The notes below the pieces were generated by a model. The model was given only the letters and a program-made list of their open reading frames with translations, made no database searches and was not told the origin of the DNA. Of a stretch of DNA of 64,000 nucleotides, positions 41,036 through 56,085 are shown piece after piece (the first letter of the stretch is position 1; every line of letters starts with the position of its first letter). The DNA is from Candidatus Peregrinibacteria bacterium (GTDB taxonomy: Bacteria; Patescibacteriota; Gracilibacteria; UBA1369; LOWO2-01-FULL-3). The DNA lies in contig JAPLYN010000005.1 in NCBI GenBank assembly GCA_026395515.1, positions 299,521 to 363,520 of the forward strand, in the 5' to 3' direction. The translations under genes were made by a program, and so were the position numbers.

Positions 41036-41064
41036 TTGACCTAAGTCTCAAAATTTGATATAAT
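41036..41064 (+). promoter_or_regulatory. Strong promoter of the giant two-gene locus
   Basis: -35 TTGACC (41036..41041), 17-base spacer, -10 TATAAT (41059..41064) preceded by TGA. The leader is 52 bases and contains a small CGGG/CCCG stem (41087..41099). No Shine-Dalgarno before the ATG at 41117. Confidence 0.8.
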
Positions 41065-41116: not shown

Positions 41117-44100
41117 ATGAGTACTCACAAATTTTTATTTCTGTTTAATAAAGTAAAGAAGAACCTCTTTAAAGAAAGTCGTTTTGTATTTGATGAACCA
41201 GAAACACATCCGACTGCAGAAACTGAAGACCCGAAAGTTAAAGAGGCAAAACTAGCAAAAGAAAAAGAAGAAGAAGAAAAGAGAAAAGCAGCAGAAAGAG
41301 CACCAGAAGCAGATAAAAATGCCCAAGCGATAGTCAAAGAAAATGAACAATTAAATGAAGATTTAAAGAGTTTAGATCAAAAAAAATTCGATAAAATCAT
41401 CAAAGAACGCATTAAAGAAAAAGGATCTAAAGGAGATTTAGAAATAGCTCAAATTGATAAACTTGCTCTTTTTGCTGCGGCAAATGAACCTGAAAAAAAT
41501 GTAAAAGCTTTATTTGAAGAATTCAAAGAACAACGTCTACATACTAATCAATTAAGCGCTGAAACAACAAAATTATTCATTCAAAAATTAAAAGAAGGAG
41601 ATAAAAAAATCTTAATAGATGAATTAATTAAAACAACAGCTACAGCAACTATTCTGATAGAAGCAACAGCCGATGAAGACTTCAAAGAATTACTTACAAA
41701 ATTTAGTGACAGTCAAAAAGCAGATCTATTAAATTCAAAAATAGATGGACCAAAGAAACAAGAAATTTTTGACAATTTAATTAGAGCCAAAATTTTTACA
41801 AATGGAGATTCAGCAACTATAGAAAAAATAATTTTATATGTGTGCAAGGAAAATCCTGGAATGATTAATACAACAATATTCCAAGAATTCACAGGAAGTG
41901 GAGTTGAATCAAAATTTGCAAAACTAACTTATCCAGCAGCAAAAGCTCTATTAGAAATAACATTTCCAAAATTTGACACCGAACAACAAAGTCAAAGTAT
42001 TTTCAACGGTTTGCTAAACAATTTGAGTAAAGAACTTCTCGGAAAATTAATTGGAGATAAAAATTTAAAATTTGAAATAAGAGATAAACTATACAGTAAA
42101 TCACTACCAAGTAGAGTAGATGGCATTTCTAAACCAGTGGAATTATTAAAAGAAGTTACAGAAGATGGCAAACCAGCTGAGGAAGCCGCGAAAACTGTAG
42201 AAAAATCCACAGAAAAAAGAAGAGATATAGAAACTGAGGTTCCAGTTAAAGGAGATAAAAAAGATAAGAAAGGAGCTGTAGTTCCCGCAGAAGGAACAAG
42301 CGCATCATCCCCTGCTTCAACTCCAGCTCAATTTTCAGAAGAGAAAGATTGGAAAGCCATCATTGAAAAAATGGCTGGAGAACTAGAATTCGACGGTAAA
42401 AGCATCTCTTGGACCTTCCCACTAAAAATTGATGGGAAACAAGTTAGTAGCGAACGAAGCTTCCGTGTAACTAAAAAATTCCTTAAAGAATTAAATAAAA
42501 CTGACGAAAATGGTCGTGTGCACAATACAAAAGATAAAGTAAAACTTTGTGCCTATGAATGGCTCTTTAAACACATTTACAAGGGTGATAAAGATGCAGC
42601 CATGAAAGGTAAAGTAGAAGCGTTTAAGGAATCACAAGCATACTTAGTTGAACAAATTGATGCATTAAATGCAAAAATAAAAGCTGAAGCAGAAAAACCT
42701 GGCACTGTTGAAGCTCCAAAACCTGGTGCTGCTGAAGCTCCAAAGCCTGGTGCTGCCGAAGCTCCAAAACCTGGAACTGTTGAAGCCAGACCCGCTGAAA
42801 CTGGCGGTAGAGAAAAAGCTCCAGAAAAAGAACTAACCTTAGCCGAAAAACTTGCAGAAAAAGTTCAAGAACTACAATCAATTGCTGATGAAGTAGCTGA
42901 TAAAAATAGTGATTCAATCGGAGCAGGAAAACGTTCCATCAAAATCGAGGGACCAAAAAGCGAAAACGAAAGTGGCCAAATTTATGCAATCAAAATTGAT
43001 GGTAAAGAAACTACTTTCGTCTTAGACATTGCAAAGAAACAAAATGACAAAAAAGAATTTGAATTCTCATTCAAAAAAGAAATAGGTGAAAAATCAGAAT
43101 ATAAGAGTTACAGCAAAGAAGAAGTAACTGCAAAATTCCAAGGTATTTTGACTCAAAGTCCAGATGAGAGAGCGGTACAAGATTTTGACAAAGCCATCCT
43201 CGAACTCGGTAAAACTGGATACGGAGCTACCATTGAAAACAAAGAGCCAAAAGCTCTCAATGTGACACAATTTACAGCTCTAAAAGACACTTTATCTAAA
43301 ATTAAAACCATCATCAAAGATGGTGAAGATTTACCAAGCATTTTAGAAAAACTAAATAACTTAGCTAGAGATACCCAACCAATAATCGAAAAAACAAGCA
43401 TCGTAAAAATCACCATCAACAGTGATCCAAAAATGGAATGGAACCCATCTAATAAAGATGCACCATTCGGAGAATTTTCAAAATTCGAAGACACAATTAA
43501 AGCCATAAAAATGGCAGAACTTGGTGGAGATAAATCTCCAAAATTCGCAGCATTTATAGAGCAAAGTGAAAAAACTAGCACTGAAAAAGATTATGAAAAA
43601 GATCAAGCAGATAGAATGAAAGAATACCGTGGTAAATATAAATCTTTGACTGAAAAAGTTTACAAAATGAAGTTCGATCTTTATGAAGGTGAAATAGTAA
43701 AGAACTTCAAGAAAATGAGTGGCTACAAGAAAGTTTCAAACATCATGAAGAATCCACCATTTTTCTTCCATGAAACTGGAGAAGTAGCAAAAAAAGTTGG
43801 TGAAATTGTATCTAATGGTCTCAATGACAGAGTAGATTTTGGCGATGTATTTAAAGCAATTAAAGATGTACCTGCCCTAAAAGCAAAAGGTCTAACAAAT
43901 TTAATGGAAGACCCAGATAAGTTCATAAAGACTTTTGATAGATTACTAAGTAAACAAAATCCAGATAAGGGAGATCAAGAACAACTAGAATTGATGTTCA
44001 ACGAAGTTCTCACTCCTTGTTTAGACTTACTAAAAGCACTAGAACAACTTGAATTCAATCCAGATAAACAAAAAGAAAGATCTGAATTGCCTAAAGAAAC

Positions 44101-47100
44101 CACAGGCATCTTAGGAGGTTTAAGCAAATTATGCGACTTCAAGAGCCGAGAACAAGGTGGCTGGGCTAAATTCTTAGGATTGATAAATGGAGCAAAGGGA
44201 GAAATTACTATGGCAGACATTGATGGTAATACAATGTTCGTAACTAAAGACAAATTCCATGATCACTACAGCACAAAAGCTGCCCTAACTATTCTTACAA
44301 ATATTAATGAAGACAAAAACAACGATGGTGAAGTAGATCACTATAGTTTCGATAAGAGTGGAAACAAAGTTTTCAATCAAGAAGCAATGACCAAGGAAAT
44401 AAATGACCTCATTCAATTGGGCGTCACCAATATGGTTATGGCTGAAGCCGGACAAAAAGGATCAAAGATAGCACCAGGAGAAATAGTTGGAATGATTAAG
44501 GAGAAATCTGGAAAATTAATGATCAAAGATTTCAACAATCTAACAAATGAACAGATCTTAGCTTTCCAATTAGGATTCATCGTTAAACAAGCTAGCCAAT
44601 TTGCCACACAGGTAAAAGAAGCCGGACAAATTGTTACAGAATCGAGCGAAGATCCAAGAATCAAAAACAATCCCCTACTAAAACAAGTTGCAAAACAATT
44701 ACTTGAACAGGGATTAAAACCAAGTGAAGTCAAAAAAATTCAAGAAAAATTACTACTTGCCGCAGGAGCTTCATTCGTAAAGACAAATGACGGAAATTAT
44801 GAATTTGAAGGAGGTGCAGTAGGAGTTATGATTCCAATTCCAGATAGCAGATTAAGCATCATGATCCAAATGGGTGGAACAATGAATGGACAATTCATTG
44901 CCGGCATAGGATTAAATATCAAAGTATATGAAGGAGAAACGTTCAAATTCAATGTTGCCACAAACTTAGATCTTAAAGGATTCACTGCAGGCGCAAATGG
45001 CTCAGTAGCGATGGGACAAGTCGATGCCAATGCATTTGTAGGAGTTCGCTTTGGATGGGACAGCATCATTCCAACAGTTGGTGGAGGAGTTGGATTCTCA
45101 TGGAATAGAGATGCTCAATTAAAGAGTAACTTAGAAGAAGCCAAGGAACAAACTGACTACGCTCAAGTATGGGCAGAATGGCAAAAAATGCCTAAATCTG
45201 ATACCGATGCCAAATTTGCTAAATTACAAGAAATCAAACCAGTTTACGACAAAATCGCTCCTGTTATGGCTGAATTCAAACTCAGCAAGGAAGATGTCGT
45301 AACCATGGTAGAAGAAATGAAAGAAGAACTAAATCGTGGAGTTATCCAGGATATGAGTTCACGTATCATTACCTACGTTGGTTTCGCGATGGTTGGTCCA
45401 GTGCCTGTTCCACAAATCGGATTCTCAATTGGTTCAGTAGAAGTTACTACTCCAAACCGTGCAGAAATTTCCAAGATTCTAGGCGAAATTTCAGACATAA
45501 AAGTGACAAAAGCTCTGAAAGAAGCCGTAAAAGAAGTAGATGAAAAACTCAAGAAAGGAGAATCAACACCAATCCTTAAAGAAGGTACAAGCAAACTTGT
45601 TTATGGACGTGACGGTAAATTAATGAGCTTAGTGAAAGAAGAAGAGGTTAAGATGATTGAAGTAAAAAACAATCTTGAAAGCTACAACCAAAGTTTGAAA
45701 CGCACAGAAATGGCATTGGAAAAGAATCCAAATGGCACTATGAAGTTGAAAATATATGGAACAGACAGAAAAGATGTAGAAATCCATATCGATCCACAAC
45801 TCAAAGATCTCGCAATTATCACAGATAAGGGTCAAATTATCATAGAAGGTAATGTGGATAAACTAGTAATAAGCCGTGAGAGATTCTCTCTTCCTTTCGA
45901 AGAGACTGAAGGTAGCGCCACAATGAGAGATATCATTACAATTAGAAGTGCGGAATCATTGGTAACAAATCGCGATAGAACTTGGATTGAAAAATACGAA
46001 AGTAAATTCCTTCAGAAATTAGAAGATGAAGAAAGCTTCTCAATTCAAAAAGGTAATTTTGAAAAAGGAAAACAAGAAAATATACGTTCAGTTGATGGAT
46101 ACTCCTCTAAAAAAGTAGAGGAAATTGCAAAAATTCCAGAGGTGAAAGACTTCATTGCTAAACGCGTAAATCTCGACTCAAGAATAGACAATGCTACTCT
46201 AAAAGAATTAAGAGTATTAATTAAAGAACGTCAAAAAGCCCTTATTGAAGGCAAATTCAGTGAGAAACAGGACGACTTCGACAAAATGGGAACAAGAGAA
46301 AATTTATTTGAAAATTTAGAGGGATTATTCCTAGGAAAGGACAAACTAAGTAAAGCTTTCCGTAAAGAATTTACTAGTGAAATTGATGACCCGGAAGCAC
46401 TAGTAAGCACTTTAATAAAATTTGCCGAACAAACAGACACACTAAAAGATTTAAATGAAAAAGAATTAAATTTAGGCCTCACTCATTTAATCAATGTACA
46501 CTTCACAAATGTATACAAAGAGGCAGCTGACAGAATTAATAAGAAAAAGAAAGGAACAAAAGTGTCAGAGAATGGTAAAGAAGAAGATAGTGAAGATCTA
46601 CAAGATTTAAACAAAAAAGAAATACAAAGAATAAATGGAGAAGTACTAAAAGGGATGAAGAAGAAATTGGAATTCGTAAAAGAAAAAGTTTTCACCAAAT
46701 CTTTCAAGAATGCAGTAAATAACATGGAGCCAAAACCAGAGACTCCAGTTCAAGAATTAATTGATAAATTATTCAAAGATATTTACGAAAAATTAAAAGC
46801 TAAATTATTAGATCCAGACTTCGATTTCCGTACTATTAAAGTTGAAGCAATACCTGGTGGAGCATATCTCTTCTCAGGCTCAAGACTTTACAACGAAAAA
46901 GGAAAAGTCAAAGGAGCAATGTCACAAAACATTGGTTACGAAACTCTAGAAAAAAATCCTAAATTACTTTTAGACTTTGGATTTCTAGAAGGAACAACTG
47001 GCAAATACTCACTTGAATCAAAAGTCCAAGTTGAAAAAGACCTAGCACGTGTAATGCTCGAACTCGCTAGTCCAATTCCTAAAGATGACGCAGAATTCTT

Positions 47101-47740
47101 ACGCAGTCCACTAGCAATGAAATTTGCAGGACTTCAAGCTACTGCCCTACTCACTTATGACGAAGGAAGCAAATTTGATGACTATAAGAAAATTTCAGAA
47201 ATTTATAAAAACCCAGAACTATTAACAGAGCCAGCCTATAAAGCATCTCTCGACAAATATAGAGCAGTTATCAATGAAATTCGTGGAACACAATTAGACG
47301 GAAAAACATTTGAAAAGAAAATTGGAAACACCGGACTCACAGTGAAATTGAAAATGAATACAGACATAAGCTATGGCGCATATTCTAAATGTACCAATAC
47401 TAGTTTCTATGTAAATGAAGTTGGAGAAATTGAAATCAGCCAAGAGACAATGAGCGGAGGCAAAGGATTAATCGCTAAATTCAACACCACTAACGAAGTA
47501 GTTTCTACAGATGTAAGCAAGATTTTTGCTTCAGTCGTGATTGGTGCCGGATTCAGAAGCGAAAGAGTATCTAGTGAAGGAAGCGGAGGCAAACATTCTG
47601 AACAAGGAGTTAAAGATAAACCAGTTGATGATAAATCCTCTGCAAGTGGACCAGCACCAGCCCAACCAGTTGCAGGAGAACAGCAAGCAAAAGTTCCTGT
47701 TCAACCAGCATCACAAAGTGCTTCACCTCATAAACATTAA
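41117..47740 (+). CDS. Giant protein of unknown function (2207 aa)
   Basis: I do not recognise a family. There is no signal peptide or clear membrane helix. An acidic/lysine-rich start (about 25-90) leads to a helical stretch (about 90-340). A low-complexity linker with four KPGxxEAP repeats (527-558) separates two regions that each contain an IDGK strand motif. Residues 1066-1074 read DKNNDGEVD, an EF-hand-like calcium loop. Residues about 1231-1335 are glycine-rich alternating strands (GGTMNGQFIAGIGLNIKV, VGVRFGWDS, VGGGVGFSW), like a beta-barrel or beta-solenoid piece. Long charged helical regions follow, then a Pro/Gln/Ser tail. A near-consensus promoter drives it, and a 1649-aa secreted protein follows 29 bases downstream. 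Confidence 0.75.
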   Translation: MSTHKFLFLFNKVKKNLFKESRFVFDEPETHPTAETEDPKVKEAKLAKEKEEEEKRKAAERAPEADKNAQAIVKENEQLNEDLKSLDQKKFDKIIKERIKEKGSKGDLEIAQIDKLALFAAANEPEKNVKALFEEFKEQRLHTNQLSAETTKLFIQKLKEGDKKILIDELIKTTATATILIEATADEDFKELLTKFSDSQKADLLNSKIDGPKKQEIFDNLIRAKIFTNGDSATIEKIILYVCKENPGMINTTIFQEFTGSGVESKFAKLTYPAAKALLEITFPKFDTEQQSQSIFNGLLNNLSKELLGKLIGDKNLKFEIRDKLYSKSLPSRVDGISKPVELLKEVTEDGKPAEEAAKTVEKSTEKRRDIETEVPVKGDKKDKKGAVVPAEGTSASSPASTPAQFSEEKDWKAIIEKMAGELEFDGKSISWTFPLKIDGKQVSSERSFRVTKKFLKELNKTDENGRVHNTKDKVKLCAYEWLFKHIYKGDKDAAMKGKVEAFKESQAYLVEQIDALNAKIKAEAEKPGTVEAPKPGAAEAPKPGAAEAPKPGTVEARPAETGGREKAPEKELTLAEKLAEKVQELQSIADEVADKNSDSIGAGKRSIKIEGPKSENESGQIYAIKIDGKETTFVLDIAKKQNDKKEFEFSFKKEIGEKSEYKSYSKEEVTAKFQGILTQSPDERAVQDFDKAILELGKTGYGATIENKEPKALNVTQFTALKDTLSKIKTIIKDGEDLPSILEKLNNLARDTQPIIEKTSIVKITINSDPKMEWNPSNKDAPFGEFSKFEDTIKAIKMAELGGDKSPKFAAFIEQSEKTSTEKDYEKDQADRMKEYRGKYKSLTEKVYKMKFDLYEGEIVKNFKKMSGYKKVSNIMKNPPFFFHETGEVAKKVGEIVSNGLNDRVDFGDVFKAIKDVPALKAKGLTNLMEDPDKFIKTFDRLLSKQNPDKGDQEQLELMFNEVLTPCLDLLKALEQLEFNPDKQKERSELPKETTGILGGLSKLCDFKSREQGGWAKFLGLINGAKGEITMADIDGNTMFVTKDKFHDHYSTKAALTILTNINEDKNNDGEVDHYSFDKSGNKVFNQEAMTKEINDLIQLGVTNMVMAEAGQKGSKIAPGEIVGMIKEKSGKLMIKDFNNLTNEQILAFQLGFIVKQASQFATQVKEAGQIVTESSEDPRIKNNPLLKQVAKQLLEQGLKPSEVKKIQEKLLLAAGASFVKTNDGNYEFEGGAVGVMIPIPDSRLSIMIQMGGTMNGQFIAGIGLNIKVYEGETFKFNVATNLDLKGFTAGANGSVAMGQVDANAFVGVRFGWDSIIPTVGGGVGFSWNRDAQLKSNLEEAKEQTDYAQVWAEWQKMPKSDTDAKFAKLQEIKPVYDKIAPVMAEFKLSKEDVVTMVEEMKEELNRGVIQDMSSRIITYVGFAMVGPVPVPQIGFSIGSVEVTTPNRAEISKILGEISDIKVTKALKEAVKEVDEKLKKGESTPILKEGTSKLVYGRDGKLMSLVKEEEVKMIEVKNNLESYNQSLKRTEMALEKNPNGTMKLKIYGTDRKDVEIHIDPQLKDLAIITDKGQIIIEGNVDKLVISRERFSLPFEETEGSATMRDIITIRSAESLVTNRDRTWIEKYESKFLQKLEDEESFSIQKGNFEKGKQENIRSVDGYSSKKVEEIAKIPEVKDFIAKRVNLDSRIDNATLKELRVLIKERQKALIEGKFSEKQDDFDKMGTRENLFENLEGLFLGKDKLSKAFRKEFTSEIDDPEALVSTLIKFAEQTDTLKDLNEKELNLGLTHLINVHFTNVYKEAADRINKKKKGTKVSENGKEEDSEDLQDLNKKEIQRINGEVLKGMKKKLEFVKEKVFTKSFKNAVNNMEPKPETPVQELIDKLFKDIYEKLKAKLLDPDFDFRTIKVEAIPGGAYLFSGSRLYNEKGKVKGAMSQNIGYETLEKNPKLLLDFGFLEGTTGKYSLESKVQVEKDLARVMLELASPIPKDDAEFLRSPLAMKFAGLQATALLTYDEGSKFDDYKKISEIYKNPELLTEPAYKASLDKYRAVINEIRGTQLDGKTFEKKIGNTGLTVKLKMNTDISYGAYSKCTNTSFYVNEVGEIEISQETMSGGKGLIAKFNTTNEVVSTDVSKIFASVVIGAGFRSERVSSEGSGGKHSEQGVKDKPVDDKSSASGPAPAQPVAGEQQAKVPVQPASQSASPHKH
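42695..42790 (+). repeat. Four in-frame 24-bp repeats (KPGxxEAP linker)
   Basis: Units start at 42695, 42719, 42743 and 42767. Each is close to AAACCTGGTGCTGCTGAAGC plus four more bases, and together they encode a proline/alanine spacer in the 2207-aa protein. Confidence 0.9.
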
Positions 47741-47769
47741 TATTTAAATAATAAAAATAAAATAAAAAT

Positions 47770-50700
47770 ATGAAAACGCCAAAACTATTTAAATCACTGC
47801 TTCTCAGCATACTAGGTATCGCAGTCGTAATAACAACTGCACATGCCGACAATCTTCAAAACATAACGAAGTACACTCCAGACAGACCAGGAGTAAATTT
47901 TGTTGAAGGTATGCAAGGATTTCCGTATCCGACTTTCAACAATTTCATAAATCAGCCAAACCTAATTGGCGGTGCTTTCGAAGGAGATGAAAGAAAATTT
48001 GCGATTGGAAAATACTGTCCAGCAGCTAAATGTGATGATAATGGTATCTATGTAAATACTATCCAGACAGCTGTAAAAGATGGAGATGTTTTGAGAATGG
48101 AATTGTATTTTCACAACAATGGCGAAGATGCATATGACAATGGAGGAACAACAAGTCCTGATGCAAAAAATGTACAAATTGGTGTCGACCTAAACAACAT
48201 TCAAGATCCAGATCATGATTACATGGTAAGACCACGTGGTTTTATTACAGCGGACAACAATGAATATCGTACAGATAGAACACAAATTTCCACTCAAATC
48301 AAAGATGCTAATGGAAACGTAATCCACACAGCAACTGATGATTTACAGGTTTTACTATCAGAATATGGGCTTGAACTTCAACCCGTAAAAGATAGTGCTT
48401 GGTTATATGTTCAAAACCAAACAACAACAGATGGTTACTATGACGACTATGTGAAAGGTCCTACAAGTCTAACATTTAAAACAGTTAAACCTGCAACTCA
48501 AACTATCAATGTAAGCCCAAACTATACAGACAAAAAAATGTGGCTTAATTTTGATAGAATACCTGGATGTTTCAGATACAGTGGATTCGCATACTTCGAC
48601 GTTAAAGTAGTGAAAAAAGCTACTCCACCAAACGTTTGTACCGAACTCAAAGCCACTCTAGACGATAAAAATCCAATTAAACTTAATGGCAATGATCTTT
48701 ACCCAATGACGGTAAACAGCATCACTTTTGCGCCACAAAATAATGTTCCTAATGATGCAGAATTAAAATGGACAACAGATGATTCAAACGGAAAATTCTA
48801 CTTCGACGTGCCCATGGCAACGCCAAAATTACCTCCAAAAAAAGTTGAAATTACCAAAAACGCTGACGGATCTGTAAACACAAGTACAGACACTACGGTT
48901 TATTATTCTGGCAAACCAGAATCTAAAATCAAAGTCACATTAGATAACATTCCAGCCGACCAAGTAGGTCCTCTATGTAACGCTTCAATGCAAACTCCAG
49001 CAGTACTCGAATGTACTGATCTTCTCGTAGATCACCCAGAACATATTTATGAAAATACATACTCTGTATTCAAAGCAAAAGCTCTTGGATCAGATGGTAA
49101 AGATCTCACAGGAAAAATTAAATATTGGGTAGATTCAGGATATGGAGAATTCTATACAGTTGCTCCTACAGGCGTTGCACAAAATAAATCTAAGATGGTG
49201 TATGAAGCGACACCTACAAGCAAAACATTCCCATTCGGAGACAATACTTTTAAACCAGATTTCACATTAGATCCAAAGATTTTCGTCGCTGGAAATAGCA
49301 ACAGCCAAGCAGCTGAAACTTTTATCTATCTTGCACCAAAATTTGCCGCAGGAACATTCGGTATCCAAGACGTTTCTGGCAACATTCAAGATCAAGGAAA
49401 ACTTGGACTCGCAGTTCAAATCAAATTCCTTGAATTGCCAAAATGGGTTACTAGTCCTATTCCAATGAATATCAACCCAGTTGATCCAAATCCAAACAGC
49501 AGCAAAGGCGCATTCAATCCATCCAATTATGGACAAAACAATGTACTTCTAGCAGTTGCTGGAGTAGGTGCTACAGATAAGATTGGCAATAGTTACCCTA
49601 CTGCAATTGATGGGACAAAGTTCATGAACCAGCCTAGCTCAGGAAGTCTATTCGATTTAAATATTGACCCAAATAAAGCTATTGGACCTGGGCAAAATAT
49701 TGATATACAAAATGCCGCTACACTTGGAAATTCAAAACAATTCTTCTTCAGTTCCCTATTCGAATCAATCACAGTTGATCCAGGAACTACGGTTTATTTT
49801 AACGCTAAAAAACCAGGAAAAGGAGTAATCCACGTACAAGTAATTGGTAGCACAAATCCAGATTGTTCAAGAACTTTCGATATTGAAGGTTTATGTAAAA
49901 CACTAGCTTTGGAAAGCTCTCCTGCCAACCCTCTAGTTGGAAATGAAATCACTTTAAACAAAGTGACATTAACAGACTCAACAGGAAAAGTTCTCCCAAG
50001 TTCTACAAACACTAACCTCACAACAACAGCAGGTGGCACATTCAAAACAGCCACACTCTCAAACATTATCTCAGCAAAAGTAAGTGACTTCCCTGTGAAA
50101 ACCACTCCTACTAAAGAAGGTACTGTCACAGTAACTATGGACCCAAACGATCCTGCGTATTCTGCAGCTTGTTCAAGTTCAGTGACTGTAAGTAAACCGG
50201 CATCTCAGGAATGTACGGCTCTTACTCTAAATATCTCAGAAAAAGGAATTACAACAAAACAAAATCCTCAAATTCTACAAAAAAACAAACAGTACATTAT
50301 TAGTGCAAGTCTCACTACAAAGTTGCCGAACGAAAACATGGTGACCTACTCTATCGACAAAGCTTATGGATCATTCTTCGATCCATTGAAACCTACAACT
50401 CCTATACAAACAATGACTGTAGGTGAAAACACTGAAGTTATTCTTCAAACCTATGATGGTCCAGTAAATACATCTGGAACTGATCTTGTTCCTAATGTTC
50501 TTAAAGTAAATGGCGTAGGATATGGAGACGCATGTAGCAAACCTCTTCCATTCAATAATCCTGCACCTGCACTCGCTTGTAACAGCATAAATGTAGATCC
50601 ACACGGTGATAGCTTTGACCCTACATCTAACGCATTCATCCCATTTACTATTAATGGCAATTTCAAAGACCACAATGGTGAAATTCGTGTAAGCATCAAG

Positions 50701-52719
50701 AGCAGCGGAGTACAAGGTTCAAAACCAACTATCAAACGTGCTGATGGTTCACAATCAACAGAGAATGGTTATATCACATTCACAAGTGATGAAGTTAAAA
50801 ACAGTAACAACCAACTAGGATTTATCTATACAAGCAATAATTTTGGTGACAGCATAACTGTTAATAACACTACCAAAGAGACATTAGACATTATTACAAC
50901 AGCCGTAGGATCATCAAATACAGCATGTAATTATCCAATTCATAAAGAAGTTTCAAGTGATCAAACATGTGAAAAAACTAATTCATGTCCTCCAGGTCCA
51001 GACAAATACACTGCACCAACATTCAGCAAAGCGTCATTCGTTGATCACAACATCAAAGATGCAGGTCCTGTTTCTAATCTTAAGAAAACAAATCACACAG
51101 TTACTTATGCTATTTCATTAGACACCGGAAATAACATCAGCGACCTCGCTACAATTTGGGATGCTTCATTGAAAGATGGAGGCACAATCTACAAGAAAGG
51201 CGTTTCAACTTGTAACCCTACAATTGCCGGATGTCTCCAAATTAAAGGAATGGAAATAAATTGGGTAAAAACTTCTGGCGGAAAAGTTTCTTTCAAAAAA
51301 ACATTATTTAAAGATAACTTCAATAACGAATCATATAAATTCGATAGCGAATTATCCGATGATGATATTAAAGATTTGAAATCAAGCTACGAACTAAATG
51401 ATTGTAGCAAAAATACAAACACAGATGAACCATGTATTGATACAGGCATAAATAAACCAAGTCTCGATGCATTTGCTGCAAACATCAAATCTACATTCAG
51501 CGCTGGAGGAGGCCTAAAATTTAGACATCTAGGAAAACTTTCAACTGGAAATAAGATTATTATCAAATACCAAATGGATTATGTATTTGGTGAAGATTTA
51601 AGCTCTAGATGTGAAAGATACAAGAATTCTAAAGATGGTTGCGGTGAACAATTCGAAAACACAGCATATTATACTGCTCTAAAGAAAACATCTGGTACTT
51701 ACAGTGAAAATAAAACTGCAAAAGTAGTAGCTATCTGTCCTTACGTTCTTTCTCGTAATGGAGGAGATGTATTCTTCCACGATGTAGTTGATACAGGTTC
51801 AGACGTAAGCCAATGTTACGAAGTTAAATCTTGTGACGGACCTTGTATTCAACCAGAATCAGATAAAGAAAAAACAACACCTAGTACTGGTACTGGAGCA
51901 AGCGGTAATGCACCTCTTCTCAAATCTCCATCACATGATGTTTGTAGCAAGAGTAACATCTCAAAAGAACAGACAGGCGGTAATGAAGGTCTAGATGCTT
52001 ACCAAGACGTCCTCAAAAACTTCTCAAGTAGCATTTGTGAATTACGTGCCGATGTATCCAAAGCTTGGACAAAACAAAACGTAACAGATTCAATTAACGC
52101 AAACGTGAAGAGACTTTCAAGATTTGGTTCAAACATAAGTGAAATACCTTCAGCGTCATCAACACACAATCTTCCACAAGATCCAAGCGGAGTATTTGTA
52201 AAAGTTGGTGGATCATTCACTATTGGAAATGGTCTACAAGATTACGTAATTGGAAATAAACTGGAAGATCGTGCAATCCCAGCTGCTCAAACCTATATCG
52301 TAATAGGTGGCAACCTAAGAATTAAATCAAACATTGTTTATGACAATAATTTAGATTTCGTTACAACATTTGATAAAACTCGTATCGCTTCCGCAGCCTT
52401 CATAGTAATCGGCGGCAACATTGAAATCGACGATAACGTAAGCCAAATTGACGGTATCATTATGGCCGTAGAAGACTCTAAAGGTAACGGAGGAAAAATT
52501 AAAGCAACAGGAGATATTTCTACTGATACAACAATCCTAAACATCAATGGTAACCTCATTGGTGACGTTTATAACCTCTTCAAGAATCGCCAAGCAGTTG
52601 GTGACCCACTTAAAGATCAAGGTTCTGTAAACATCCATTATGACGAACGTATTCTCTTGAATCCTCCATCAGGAATCAATGAGCTCATCAATCTACAGCA
52701 AGTAGTCGTTCCAAACTAA
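47770..52719 (+). CDS. Giant secreted multi-domain surface protein (1649 aa)
   Basis: A signal peptide (MKTPKLFKSLLLSILGIAVV...AHA) marks export. The N-terminal region (about 60-285) is a beta-rich module in a style seen in other CPR surface proteins. Five Ig-like modules follow. Each opens with a Cys-x-x-L/I motif (C290, C415, C709, C815, C937) and closes with another Cys, which suggests disulfide-bracketed repeats. An additional domain (about 1080-1360) precedes a C-terminal region with VIGGNLRIKSN, VIGGNIEIDDN and INGNLIGDVYNL strands that look like a beta-helix, then NIHYDERILLNPPSG. No LPXTG, SLH or clear transmembrane anchor is seen. A surface or adhesin role is inferred. A terminator follows. 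Confidence 0.75.
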   Translation: MKTPKLFKSLLLSILGIAVVITTAHADNLQNITKYTPDRPGVNFVEGMQGFPYPTFNNFINQPNLIGGAFEGDERKFAIGKYCPAAKCDDNGIYVNTIQTAVKDGDVLRMELYFHNNGEDAYDNGGTTSPDAKNVQIGVDLNNIQDPDHDYMVRPRGFITADNNEYRTDRTQISTQIKDANGNVIHTATDDLQVLLSEYGLELQPVKDSAWLYVQNQTTTDGYYDDYVKGPTSLTFKTVKPATQTINVSPNYTDKKMWLNFDRIPGCFRYSGFAYFDVKVVKKATPPNVCTELKATLDDKNPIKLNGNDLYPMTVNSITFAPQNNVPNDAELKWTTDDSNGKFYFDVPMATPKLPPKKVEITKNADGSVNTSTDTTVYYSGKPESKIKVTLDNIPADQVGPLCNASMQTPAVLECTDLLVDHPEHIYENTYSVFKAKALGSDGKDLTGKIKYWVDSGYGEFYTVAPTGVAQNKSKMVYEATPTSKTFPFGDNTFKPDFTLDPKIFVAGNSNSQAAETFIYLAPKFAAGTFGIQDVSGNIQDQGKLGLAVQIKFLELPKWVTSPIPMNINPVDPNPNSSKGAFNPSNYGQNNVLLAVAGVGATDKIGNSYPTAIDGTKFMNQPSSGSLFDLNIDPNKAIGPGQNIDIQNAATLGNSKQFFFSSLFESITVDPGTTVYFNAKKPGKGVIHVQVIGSTNPDCSRTFDIEGLCKTLALESSPANPLVGNEITLNKVTLTDSTGKVLPSSTNTNLTTTAGGTFKTATLSNIISAKVSDFPVKTTPTKEGTVTVTMDPNDPAYSAACSSSVTVSKPASQECTALTLNISEKGITTKQNPQILQKNKQYIISASLTTKLPNENMVTYSIDKAYGSFFDPLKPTTPIQTMTVGENTEVILQTYDGPVNTSGTDLVPNVLKVNGVGYGDACSKPLPFNNPAPALACNSINVDPHGDSFDPTSNAFIPFTINGNFKDHNGEIRVSIKSSGVQGSKPTIKRADGSQSTENGYITFTSDEVKNSNNQLGFIYTSNNFGDSITVNNTTKETLDIITTAVGSSNTACNYPIHKEVSSDQTCEKTNSCPPGPDKYTAPTFSKASFVDHNIKDAGPVSNLKKTNHTVTYAISLDTGNNISDLATIWDASLKDGGTIYKKGVSTCNPTIAGCLQIKGMEINWVKTSGGKVSFKKTLFKDNFNNESYKFDSELSDDDIKDLKSSYELNDCSKNTNTDEPCIDTGINKPSLDAFAANIKSTFSAGGGLKFRHLGKLSTGNKIIIKYQMDYVFGEDLSSRCERYKNSKDGCGEQFENTAYYTALKKTSGTYSENKTAKVVAICPYVLSRNGGDVFFHDVVDTGSDVSQCYEVKSCDGPCIQPESDKEKTTPSTGTGASGNAPLLKSPSHDVCSKSNISKEQTGGNEGLDAYQDVLKNFSSSICELRADVSKAWTKQNVTDSINANVKRLSRFGSNISEIPSASSTHNLPQDPSGVFVKVGGSFTIGNGLQDYVIGNKLEDRAIPAAQTYIVIGGNLRIKSNIVYDNNLDFVTTFDKTRIASAAFIVIGGNIEIDDNVSQIDGIIMAVEDSKGNGGKIKATGDISTDTTILNINGNLIGDVYNLFKNRQAVGDPLKDQGSVNIHYDERILLNPPSGINELINLQQVVVPN

Positions 52720-52724
52720 TAAAC

Positions 52725-52755
52725 AAAAGGCCCTGAGAAATCGGGGCCTTTATTG
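52725..52755 (+). terminator. Terminator after the giant locus
   Basis: AAAAGGCCC (52725..52733) pairs with GGGCCTTT (52744..52751), 10-base loop, T-rich tail. Confidence 0.8.
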
Positions 52756-52791: not shown

Positions 52792-52819
52792 TTGAACAAA
52801 GGTAAATTCCTGATATAAT
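52792..52819 (+). promoter_or_regulatory. Promoter of holA
   Basis: -35 TTGAAC (52792..52797), 16-base spacer, -10 TATAAT (52814..52819) preceded by TGA. The ATG at 52829 lies nine bases after the -10. Confidence 0.75.
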
Positions 52820-53806: not shown

Positions 53807-53815
53807 AAACCAAAG

Positions 53816-53824
53816 TGCTATACT
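53816..53824 (+). promoter_or_regulatory. Extended -10 of the SLH protein gene
   Basis: TGC-TATACT (53816..53824). The GTG at 53815 that would extend the protein overlaps this element, so the ATG at 53848 is the start. Confidence 0.6.
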
Positions 53825-53847
53825 CAATTAAGTTTTTAACTTTCTAT

Positions 53848-56085
53848 ATGAAAAAAACAATTCTAGCCGCAAGTATTCTCTCTCTATTTATCACTACAAA
53901 CATCGTATCGGCAAATAGCTTAAAAGAAGTTATTCCTGGCTCTACAGACATGTACCTTGAATTTAACACCACCTCAAAAAATCCTCTTCAAGACTACATC
54001 AGCAAAGAAATGCCAAAGCAATTTGCAAACAGCATATTTTCTGATGAAACAGATCAAACTCAAAAAGAAAAGGTGATCAAAGCTTTCGGAGACATTCTTT
54101 CCAATACCACTCTTTCATTTGGAATGAACTACCCTGAAGATTTTTCTGCTGGATTAAAAGTTACAGATACTCAATTCCAAAATTTTATTGATGCACTTGG
54201 CTCAAAAGCCACAGTTGAATCTGAAAATCCAAAGATCTATTTAACAAGAGAGGACTTTTTCTTCACAAAATCAGGAGATCTATTATTAGCCGCTCCTACA
54301 AAGGAAAAATTACTTTCAATCTTAAATAACACCGGAGACATTTTGACATCAGATACAAATTTCAAAGATGTCAGCAGCGACTTCAGCGCAGAAGATGCCA
54401 TCACAATTTTTATTTCAAATTCATTCGTCAAAAATATTTTCAAAAATAGCACAAAAGCTGAAGAAATGGCCACTGCCATTACAGATTCATTCAAAGCTTT
54501 TGGACTCACAATCAGAAAAACAAGCACTGGAATTAACTCAAAAATAATCACAGTTTTCGATTCCGCAAAGGCTAAAGAACTTGGATTGAATACAACAGCA
54601 AACAATTTCACTCCGCTCTTATACAAAGTCATGCCAAGTGAAAATCCAATTTTTTACACTGAAGCTTCAAATCTAAAAAACTCTCTTGATACAGCCATAA
54701 ATTTGATAGAAAAAACTGGAAAAGTACCAGCATCAGAATTAAAGATTCCAACAGAAATAGACACATATCTTTCAATTCTAGAAAATGAAATTGCAGTTTA
54801 TATTCAAAAAGACACTCAAATTCTTCCTGCGGTTACAATTATATTAAACACTTCAGCTCATAAAGATATTGCAGCAGACATCGTAACAAAACTAACTTCT
54901 GCATTAGAAGAAGAATTCAAAAACAACAATACTGAATATCAACAATCAGTAAGTAAAGGATTAACTACTTACACTTTTGATCTAAACAAGCTAGACAAAG
55001 AAGGCCAAATTCCAGATGGAATGAATAAAATCAGCATCACAATTGGAATAACTCCTGAGAATTATCTCATCCTTTCTTCTTACTCAAAAATTGCTTCAAA
55101 ATACGGAGAAGGTCTCACAAAAAATTCCGATTTCAAAACTGCCTTCTCAAACCTAAATCAAACAGTTGCCGGAATTACCTATGGAAACATCGAAAATCTT
55201 GCTTCATGGTATGACCAAGTTCTTAACACTGTAGAACAAGTAAGCACTAACGATTTTACAAAAAAACAAATCACAGAAACACGTGATTTACTCAAGCAAG
55301 CAAAGAAACCATGGCACGACTTCGCAATCACAAAGAAAAATACAGAAACAAAGAGTACTACAGAAATTAATCTAAATTTTGATATCAACCAACTCAACCT
55401 ATCTTATTTCAAAACTTTCTACGACTTTTCAAAAGCAAATAAGTTAACTTTCAAAAGTTTCACAAACTCACGCCAAACTTTCAATGATACACCTGCTGAC
55501 GGCTGGTATTACAGCGACGTCAAAGAACTAAGCGCTCGTGGAGTCATTAATGGCTACGGAGACAATAGCTTTAAACCAAATAATCAAATCACACGTGCAG
55601 AGTTTTTAACTATGGTGTTACGTGCATTTGAAGGAAACAATTTCGATTACAATTACGGAGAATCTACTTCTAAATTTAAAGATGTCAAAGATAGCGACTG
55701 GTTTGCAAATGCTGTAACACAAGGAACAAATGATGGTCTAGTTAGCGGTTACAGCGACAACAGCTTCCATCCAAACAGCCCAATAACTAGAGCAGAAGCC
55801 ACAGCCCTTCTACATAAAATGATCAAGTTCAAATACGGTGAACAAGTTAAACTTCCAGTGAGAGCTTTCGCTGATCCATTCACAGACGTTAAACCAAATG
55901 ACTGGTACTATGAAGATGTTCAAAGAATTTACGGATACTCCATTATTGACGGAGACAGCAATGGCACTTCCTTCTCACCAAATCGCAATTTAAACCGCGC
56001 TGAAGCTTCAAAAATTATCAACAAAGCCTTAAAAGGAATAGATGAAGTTTCTAAAGGAGGAAATAGTTTTCCAGAGATGCAATAA
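53848..56085 (+). CDS. Exported protein with DUF3352-like region and three SLH domains
   Basis: A 745-aa protein with a signal peptide (MKKTILAASILSLFITTNIVSA). Residues about 28-480 resemble DUF3352-type lipoprotein-like domains (EVIPGSTDMYLEFNTTS...). Three S-layer homology domains follow at about 552-605, 610-660 and 680-732, with GWYYSDVKELSARGVINGYG, DWFANAVTQGTNDGLVSGY, FHPNSPITRAEAT and DWYYEDVQRI. SLH domains hold proteins to pyruvylated wall polymers in other bacteria, so this protein is probably held at the cell surface. The ligand here is unknown. The WecA-like, ligase-like, manC and glmS genes could supply such a polymer. Confidence 0.88.
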   Translation: MKKTILAASILSLFITTNIVSANSLKEVIPGSTDMYLEFNTTSKNPLQDYISKEMPKQFANSIFSDETDQTQKEKVIKAFGDILSNTTLSFGMNYPEDFSAGLKVTDTQFQNFIDALGSKATVESENPKIYLTREDFFFTKSGDLLLAAPTKEKLLSILNNTGDILTSDTNFKDVSSDFSAEDAITIFISNSFVKNIFKNSTKAEEMATAITDSFKAFGLTIRKTSTGINSKIITVFDSAKAKELGLNTTANNFTPLLYKVMPSENPIFYTEASNLKNSLDTAINLIEKTGKVPASELKIPTEIDTYLSILENEIAVYIQKDTQILPAVTIILNTSAHKDIAADIVTKLTSALEEEFKNNNTEYQQSVSKGLTTYTFDLNKLDKEGQIPDGMNKISITIGITPENYLILSSYSKIASKYGEGLTKNSDFKTAFSNLNQTVAGITYGNIENLASWYDQVLNTVEQVSTNDFTKKQITETRDLLKQAKKPWHDFAITKKNTETKSTTEINLNFDINQLNLSYFKTFYDFSKANKLTFKSFTNSRQTFNDTPADGWYYSDVKELSARGVINGYGDNSFKPNNQITRAEFLTMVLRAFEGNNFDYNYGESTSKFKDVKDSDWFANAVTQGTNDGLVSGYSDNSFHPNSPITRAEATALLHKMIKFKYGEQVKLPVRAFADPFTDVKPNDWYYEDVQRIYGYSIIDGDSNGTSFSPNRNLNRAEASKIINKALKGIDEVSKGGNSFPEMQ

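Follow-up and report, generated by a model that had tools for sequence, protein, structure and literature searches.

Two adjacent genes on the forward strand were found in the window, i.e., the 64,000-nucleotide stretch of contig JAPLYN010000005.1 (positions 299,521 to 363,520) from a Candidatus Peregrinibacteria bacterium. Giant 1 encodes a protein of 2207 aa; giant 2, which starts 29 bases past it, encodes a protein of 1649 aa. The ORFs thus agreed with the first-pass annotation of this DNA, which had been made from the letters alone. Among the 1140 ORFs of 80 aa or more in the assembly analysed (1.30 Mb, 99.93% complete), giant 1 ranked 2nd and giant 2 ranked 9th in size. The longest ORF of the genome (G000 C1:153120-167708) encodes a predicted protein of 4862 aa that begins with a hydrophobic segment.

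Table 1. Features of the giant-gene locus, with positions in the window
Feature	Position	Strand	Basis
Probable extended -10 sigma70-type promoter, TTGACC-17-TGATATAAT with TG extension	41036..41064	+	11/12 consensus match
Giant gene 1, 2207 aa	41117..47740	+	ORF, hydropathy, orthologues
N-terminal motif KESRFVFDEP (aa 19-28)	41171..41200	+	orthologue N-termini, own-genome scan
Variable N-terminal half, helical/charged	41204..42682	+	low conservation, aa 26-830
Pro/Ala linker, 24-bp tandem repeat x 4.3	42683..42786	+	repeat analysis; left replacement joint versus G002
Conserved core, aa 830-1660	43604..46096	+	conservation, alignment
EF-hand-like loop DKNNDGEVDHYS (aa 1066-1077)	44312..44347	+	not conserved
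Gly-rich amphipathic beta block, 8 predicted strands (aa 1214-1329)	44756..45103	+	AF2 model, pLDDT about 50
Helical insert between predicted-barrel strands 8 and 9	45104..45367	+	AF2 model
Hydrophobic hairpin, strands 9-10 (aa 1418-1436)	45368..45424	+	alignment, AF2 model
Most conserved stretch, IDP ... ITRERF ... IRDxITIR (aa 1532-1611)	45710..45949	+	conservation, alignment
C-terminal domain (aa 1831-2150), invariant Cys2092 in GAYSKCxN	46607..47566	+	alignment
Disordered Gly/Pro/Ser-rich C-terminal tail	47567..47737	+	AF2 pLDDT 25-40; orthologue tails alike
Giant gene 2, 1649 aa, Sec-secreted	47770..52719	+	ORF, orthologues
Sec signal peptide, AHA|DN	47770..47847	+	sequence; hydropathy 2.11 at aa 6
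N-terminal domain, PTFNNF ... HNNG type	47848..48633	+	identity comparison with G002
Cys-bounded repeats	48634..51069	+	read from sequence; boundaries approximate
C-terminal beta-solenoid (aa 1453-1649), end YDERILLNPPSGINEL	52126..52716	+	AF2 pLDDT mostly 70-97
Terminator-like hairpin AAAGGCCC-10-GGGCCTTT	52726..52751	+	read from sequence

The first-pass annotation had placed the two genes between a near-consensus extended promoter and a strong terminator. Most family orthologues have a TTGAC...TATAAT site in the corresponding position 5' of giant 1, so the promoter is probably genuine. The hairpin behind giant 2 is also present, but calling it strong was an overstatement, as its T-run is short and lies partly inside the stem; an automated hairpin scan passed over it because its loop is longer than 8. 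The downstream gene holA has a promoter-like site of its own at 52792-52819. The mRNA-leader hairpin at the giant 1 start was common to the sister species G002 only.

A Shine-Dalgarno-like sequence was detected by a simple pattern scan in only 36 of the 781 genes of the whole genome G000, and the giant 1 leaders of many relatives are A/C-rich (AAAACAAAAACAAA-ATG) in place of it. In G000, MFKEKFLIFKEQT upstream of a 1566-aa glutamate synthase-like protein (C6:571692-576392) resembles the giant 1 start of L080, MFKERFLIFRGE, which may be a coincidence. Just 3' of holA, a secreted protein with three SLH domains is encoded at 53815-56085 of the window; it is fast-diverging too (58% to G003).

Both proteins had been described as unknown, and this description held. 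The Pfam and NCBIfam scans of proteins 1 and 2 gave no convincing match, homologue scans for known families returned scattered sub-threshold matches only (e.g., DUF7305 at E 0.07), and protein 1 matched no housekeeping family. The SLH family (PF00395) was found in neither giant protein, only in the nearby 53815-56085 product. When profiles were compared with PDB sequences, a TIM10 match (E 0.6) was discarded and there were otherwise no matches. No earlier account of a two-giant-gene locus in Peregrinibacteria was found in the open literature, the scope of which leaves most subscription journals outside.

Architecture of the two proteins

Protein 1 lacks a signal peptide, in line with the first-pass annotation, and its hydropathy shows no transmembrane helix. 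It carries strongly charged helical arrays, and cysteines are few in giant 1 proteins (1-12 each). Its conservation is high over the first 25 residues, low over aa 26-830, and high again over aa 830-1660 and 1775-2150; the domain at aa 1831-2150 is the part detectable by sequence in the other families of the order. The Pro/Ala linker and the glycine-rich strand block that had been noticed were both confirmed, the latter being conserved in most orthologues. The EF-hand-like loop is likewise present, but among 16 aligned orthologues it occurred only in the window and in G003 (L061), and it was therefore rejected as a core feature.

A short motif lies near the N-terminus (aa 19-28). Of 25 orthologue N-termini, 15 have the pattern R[FLM][VLIMA][FYH] in their first 60 aa, compared to 0.14 expected, and a corrected start in L146 adds a 16th; the other 9 lack the motif or have it in a changed form. 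A basic stretch lies N-terminal to it. In its own genome, a stricter form occurred near the N-terminus of six proteins and internally in none, a zero count that is optimistic because the pattern was refined after the matches had been seen. The carriers are a few other large proteins, including one with phage-tail-lysozyme and GDSL domains; such a protein at L093:14850-17399 (849 aa) has the N-terminal NNRFVFDKPGE and no obvious Sec signal. However, the G008 orthologue of the lysozyme/GDSL protein lacks the motif, and G008 has few motif proteins in the approximately 0.8 of its 1 Mb that was read. The reading of the motif as a strict secretion or export signal is therefore weakened. In G000, a cluster of large proteins of 2093, 360, 1325, and 1461 aa with no function assigned was noticed at C6:59324-75553 (L083/L084). 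Three proteins of this cluster have an N-terminal ENRLIY/ENRFIF/EARFVY motif, and the 1325-aa one was found in 20 of 60 genomes searched.

The AF2 model shows aa 1214-1329 as eight long antiparallel strands, with two further strands beyond the helical insert (pLDDT about 50). The alternating hydropathy of the six central strands was retained in 94-100% of 16 orthologues, and the strand 9-10 hairpin exists in a Gly/Ala-rich hydrophobic version in some of the orthologues. We then scored beta-amphipathicity over the least charged Gly-rich 115-residue stretch of each protein. The z value was 4.1 for protein 1 and 3.2 as the median of the giant 1 set (24 of 29 above 2), compared with a median of -0.25 for 94 other large proteins of the genome (3 of 94 above 2). 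The amphipathic block was also seen in families with barely detectable sequence similarity. In a Foldseek search against PDB, the top matches were almost all outer-membrane barrels (probability up to 0.99), at E values of 0.6-3 that are not significant alone. With VIA, KdgM matched at Z 9.8 over 143 of 171 residues, and the predicted 8+2 amphipathic strands resemble KdgM, NanC, OmpG, and FapF at Z 8.1-9.8. A viral structure library gave weak barrel matches only.

Unlike these outer-membrane barrels, protein 1 has no signal peptide, and its block, modelled with low confidence, sits in a mostly charged protein of 2207 aa. Omp85 (PF01103) was not found in the 99.93% complete genome, 7 control genomes being positive, and no secretin family was found either, again with positive controls. 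CPR bacteria have been proposed to lack an outer membrane (PMC12102498). Because of these two points, a classical outer-membrane protein is unlikely; the block may be either a soluble barrel or one that reaches a membrane by another route.

Protein 2 had been called clearly secreted, and its obvious Sec signal peptide bears this out. In G002 and G003, its N-terminal domain is replaced by one of a quite different type. Within homologues, repeated alignments were obtained for the segments aa 415-483, 665-870, and 909-1035; the Cys-bounded repeats are probably Ig-like. The C-terminal solenoid matched ComZ with VIA at Z 10.5 over 204 residues and ice-binding proteins at Z 8.5-9.9; Foldseek alone was not significant (best E 1.3, ComZ). 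ComZ, a competence pilin at the pilus tip of Thermus thermophilus (6qvi), shares the irregular beta-solenoid type with the protein 2 C-terminus, and its own paper relates it to the ice-binding protein FfIBP (PMC6561018), which was also among our top solenoid matches. In contrast to ComZ, protein 2 has no recognisable pilin fold, its solenoid ends a protein of 1649 aa whose Sec signal is ordinary, and giant 2 does not lie beside pilus genes. The class III prepilin signal motif is absent from its N-terminus. Pilus-type ATPase genes are present elsewhere in the genome. The likeness to ComZ is thus one of fold only, and the assignment of protein 2 as a pilin is unsupported; a structure by itself does not reveal function. 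DUF3494-type ice-binding proteins share the beta-solenoid fold, but no DUF3494 Pfam match was obtained in protein 2 or 33 homologues, and ice binding is unlikely to be the common function of the solenoid.

Distribution, chromosomal slot, and probable module replacement

The protein 1 search returned relatives in 32 of 99 genomes. Of the 89 genomes of the order, 79 were matched by a profile built on the protein 2 C-terminus, roughly 70 of the matches covering the full domain and the rest being short matches to related solenoids. The complete family f14 genomes G060, G067, and G076 gave no match with this profile, and G053, G072, and G081 of the same family gave short ones only; as judged from the profile, the giant locus is dispensable in several complete f14 genomes. 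The solenoid module alone is spread wider (64 of 239 phylum genomes sampled), and the protein 1 profile had no match outside the order in the phylum sample. On named contigs, nearly all of them from metagenome-assembled genomes, the relatives of protein 2 belonged almost entirely to Candidatus Peregrinibacteria, Peribacteria, or Gracilibacteria in a scan that rests on a close alignment, one broad alignment being unsuitable. Two contigs labelled Nitrospirota are probably misassigned bins.

Gene order was read in 34 related loci. In every locus of the order that has the upstream side on the contig, a same-strand giant ORF precedes giant 2, so that the two genes co-occur, as the first-pass annotation had asked to be checked. 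The slot reads tpiA, giant 1, giant 2, holA, bordered by wzyC and murE on one side and by trmB and gatA on the other; it is usually exact, but some loci have an additional gene or two or an inverted holA. Giant 1 usually stands directly before giant 2; the exceptions are two family f8 genomes, in which a 178-aa single-TM protein lies between them (L078:10100-10636 and L150:13720-14256). A small ORF was seen 5' of giant 1 in L072 and L073. In another order of the class, a distant giant 2 relative (L160:4582-9570, G093) has a different neighbourhood without giant 1. By gene order and distribution, the two-gene locus is read as ancient, order-wide, and vertically kept in Peregrinibacteria, whose cells are ultra-small.

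The giants diverge in sequence and length far faster than the neighbouring genes. Complete copies range from 1484 to 3344 aa for giant 1 and from 1008 to 2293 aa for giant 2, and in the comparison with G003 identity is 76-87% for flanking proteins and about 44-48% for the giants. Compared with G002, the concatenated flanks are 94% identical, protein 1 aa 1-500 75%, and its core (aa 830-1660) 33%; the N-terminal domain of protein 2 is 27% identical and its downstream parts 58-94%. In the core tree, G002 was placed beside G028, a different genus, with a support of 1.00. The nucleotide identity to G002 fell from about 80% to about 62% at 42700, within the 24-bp Pro/Ala repeat, and was regained near 48600, inside gene 2; more mosaic patches were present at about 50200-50600 and 50900-51700. 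Each of the two joints lies within a contig, although gene 1 of G002 is divided between two contigs. Identity also drops in a similar way inside gene 1 in a second species pair, G005/G027, at around residue 800. For a Gracilibacterium, a predicted surface protein with a hypervariable Pro-rich repeat has been described (PMC6851277).

The stretch that begins at the gene 1 Pro/Ala linker and extends into gene 2 thus looks as if it had been replaced between sister species, although very rapid divergence in place of transfer could, with lower probability, account for the identity drop. Since the protein 1 core and the protein 2 N-terminus were replaced together, the alignments suggest that these two parts interact.

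Interpretation of the giant pair

The first-pass annotation had suggested a dedicated surface or host-contact system. The secreted partner, the fast divergence, and the recurrent module replacement fit this suggestion, while a surface location of protein 1 and contact with a host stay conjectural. The explanation that we tentatively prefer, at somewhat less than an even chance, is that the two giants form a modular, lineage-specific, fast-evolving envelope or cell-contact system of Peregrinibacteria. The strict pairing in a fixed slot, the order-wide solenoid profile, and the restriction of protein 1 to the order point to it, as do the secreted partner with its ComZ-like solenoid, the recurrent amphipathic beta block, and the block replacement. 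Against it, the exit of protein 1 from the cytoplasm and its export route are matters we can only infer, the beta model is of low confidence, neither Omp85 nor secretins were found, the locus is missing in some f14 genomes, and the motif is inconstant. In such a system, protein 2 would be a surface protein of elongated shape, with the solenoid at its tip binding a target, and protein 1 would act with it at the envelope, possibly sorted by its N-terminal motif. The barrel-like block might enter or touch a membrane, the neighbour's or its own, during contact, and variation in partner cells or phages could drive the module replacement. A more specific proposal, which we regard as improbable, takes KExRFVF as an unrecognised non-Sec export or sorting signal that delivers giant soluble proteins to the outside or into other cells; an Omp85-independent barrel would insert in a membrane there, protein 2 would be the secreted partner for docking, and the barrel-bearing core would reassort like a cassette.

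Protein 1 could instead be a scaffold in the cytoplasm or on the inner-membrane face, docked by its N-terminal amphipathic/KExRFVF segment, that lends order or stiffness to the cell or to a surface machine it forms together with protein 2; in that case the beta block would be a soluble barrel. This possibility, which we consider rather unlikely, would fit a protein with strongly charged helical arrays, few cysteines, a basic stretch ahead of the motif, and no signal peptide or TM helix. However, a core that is replaced jointly with the N-terminus of a secreted partner and that diverges very fast is unusual for internal scaffolds, and the fold search for the block returned membrane barrels as the closest.

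An amphipathic beta block with a hydrophobic hairpin inside a soluble giant would also suit a contact-dependent weapon, in which protein 1 is an effector or pore-former entering neighbours by a non-Sec route, protein 2 is an adhesin or docking factor, and the variable cores reflect target conflict. As in polymorphic toxin systems, a constant N-terminal part is followed by an exchanged large carboxy part (in two species pairs here), and a protein with the same motif combines phage-tail-lysozyme and GDSL domains with no obvious Sec signal. We nevertheless judge a weapon to be improbable, since Pfam, NCBIfam, and homologue scans matched no toxin domain, no immunity gene was recognised in the slot, and the G008 orthologue of the lysozyme protein is without the motif; in addition, the replaced part here is huge and extends into the next gene, which differs from polymorphic toxins. 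An ordinary lineage-specific envelope structure, such as a sheath or fibre with no dedicated host role, would agree with an order-wide, vertical locus in a fixed slot, with the SLH-domain protein encoded nearby, and with the S-layers and giant surface proteins that are usual in CPR (PMC8080830, PMC6851277), but it is very unlikely because module replacement and diversification far exceed those of the neighbouring genes.

For the envelope or cell-contact system, the nearest comparison is Vampirococcus (Absconditabacteria), a sister lineage on the same CPR branch, in which very large surface proteins are thought to serve recognition and attachment (PMC8080830). Those giants differ in being inferred membrane proteins with known adhesion domains, and the part of PMC8080830 used here reports no syntenic two-gene unit like giant 1/giant 2. 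An operon held in one slot across an order, belonging to no described family and showing module replacement between sister species, is a strong candidate for the partner-facing machinery of the group. Since few CPR bacteria have been cultured, little is known of how they recognise other cells and exploit them. The locus offers pieces that can be tested, namely the motif, the beta block, and the solenoid, and the giant pair could show how uncultured Peregrinibacteria deal with other cells.
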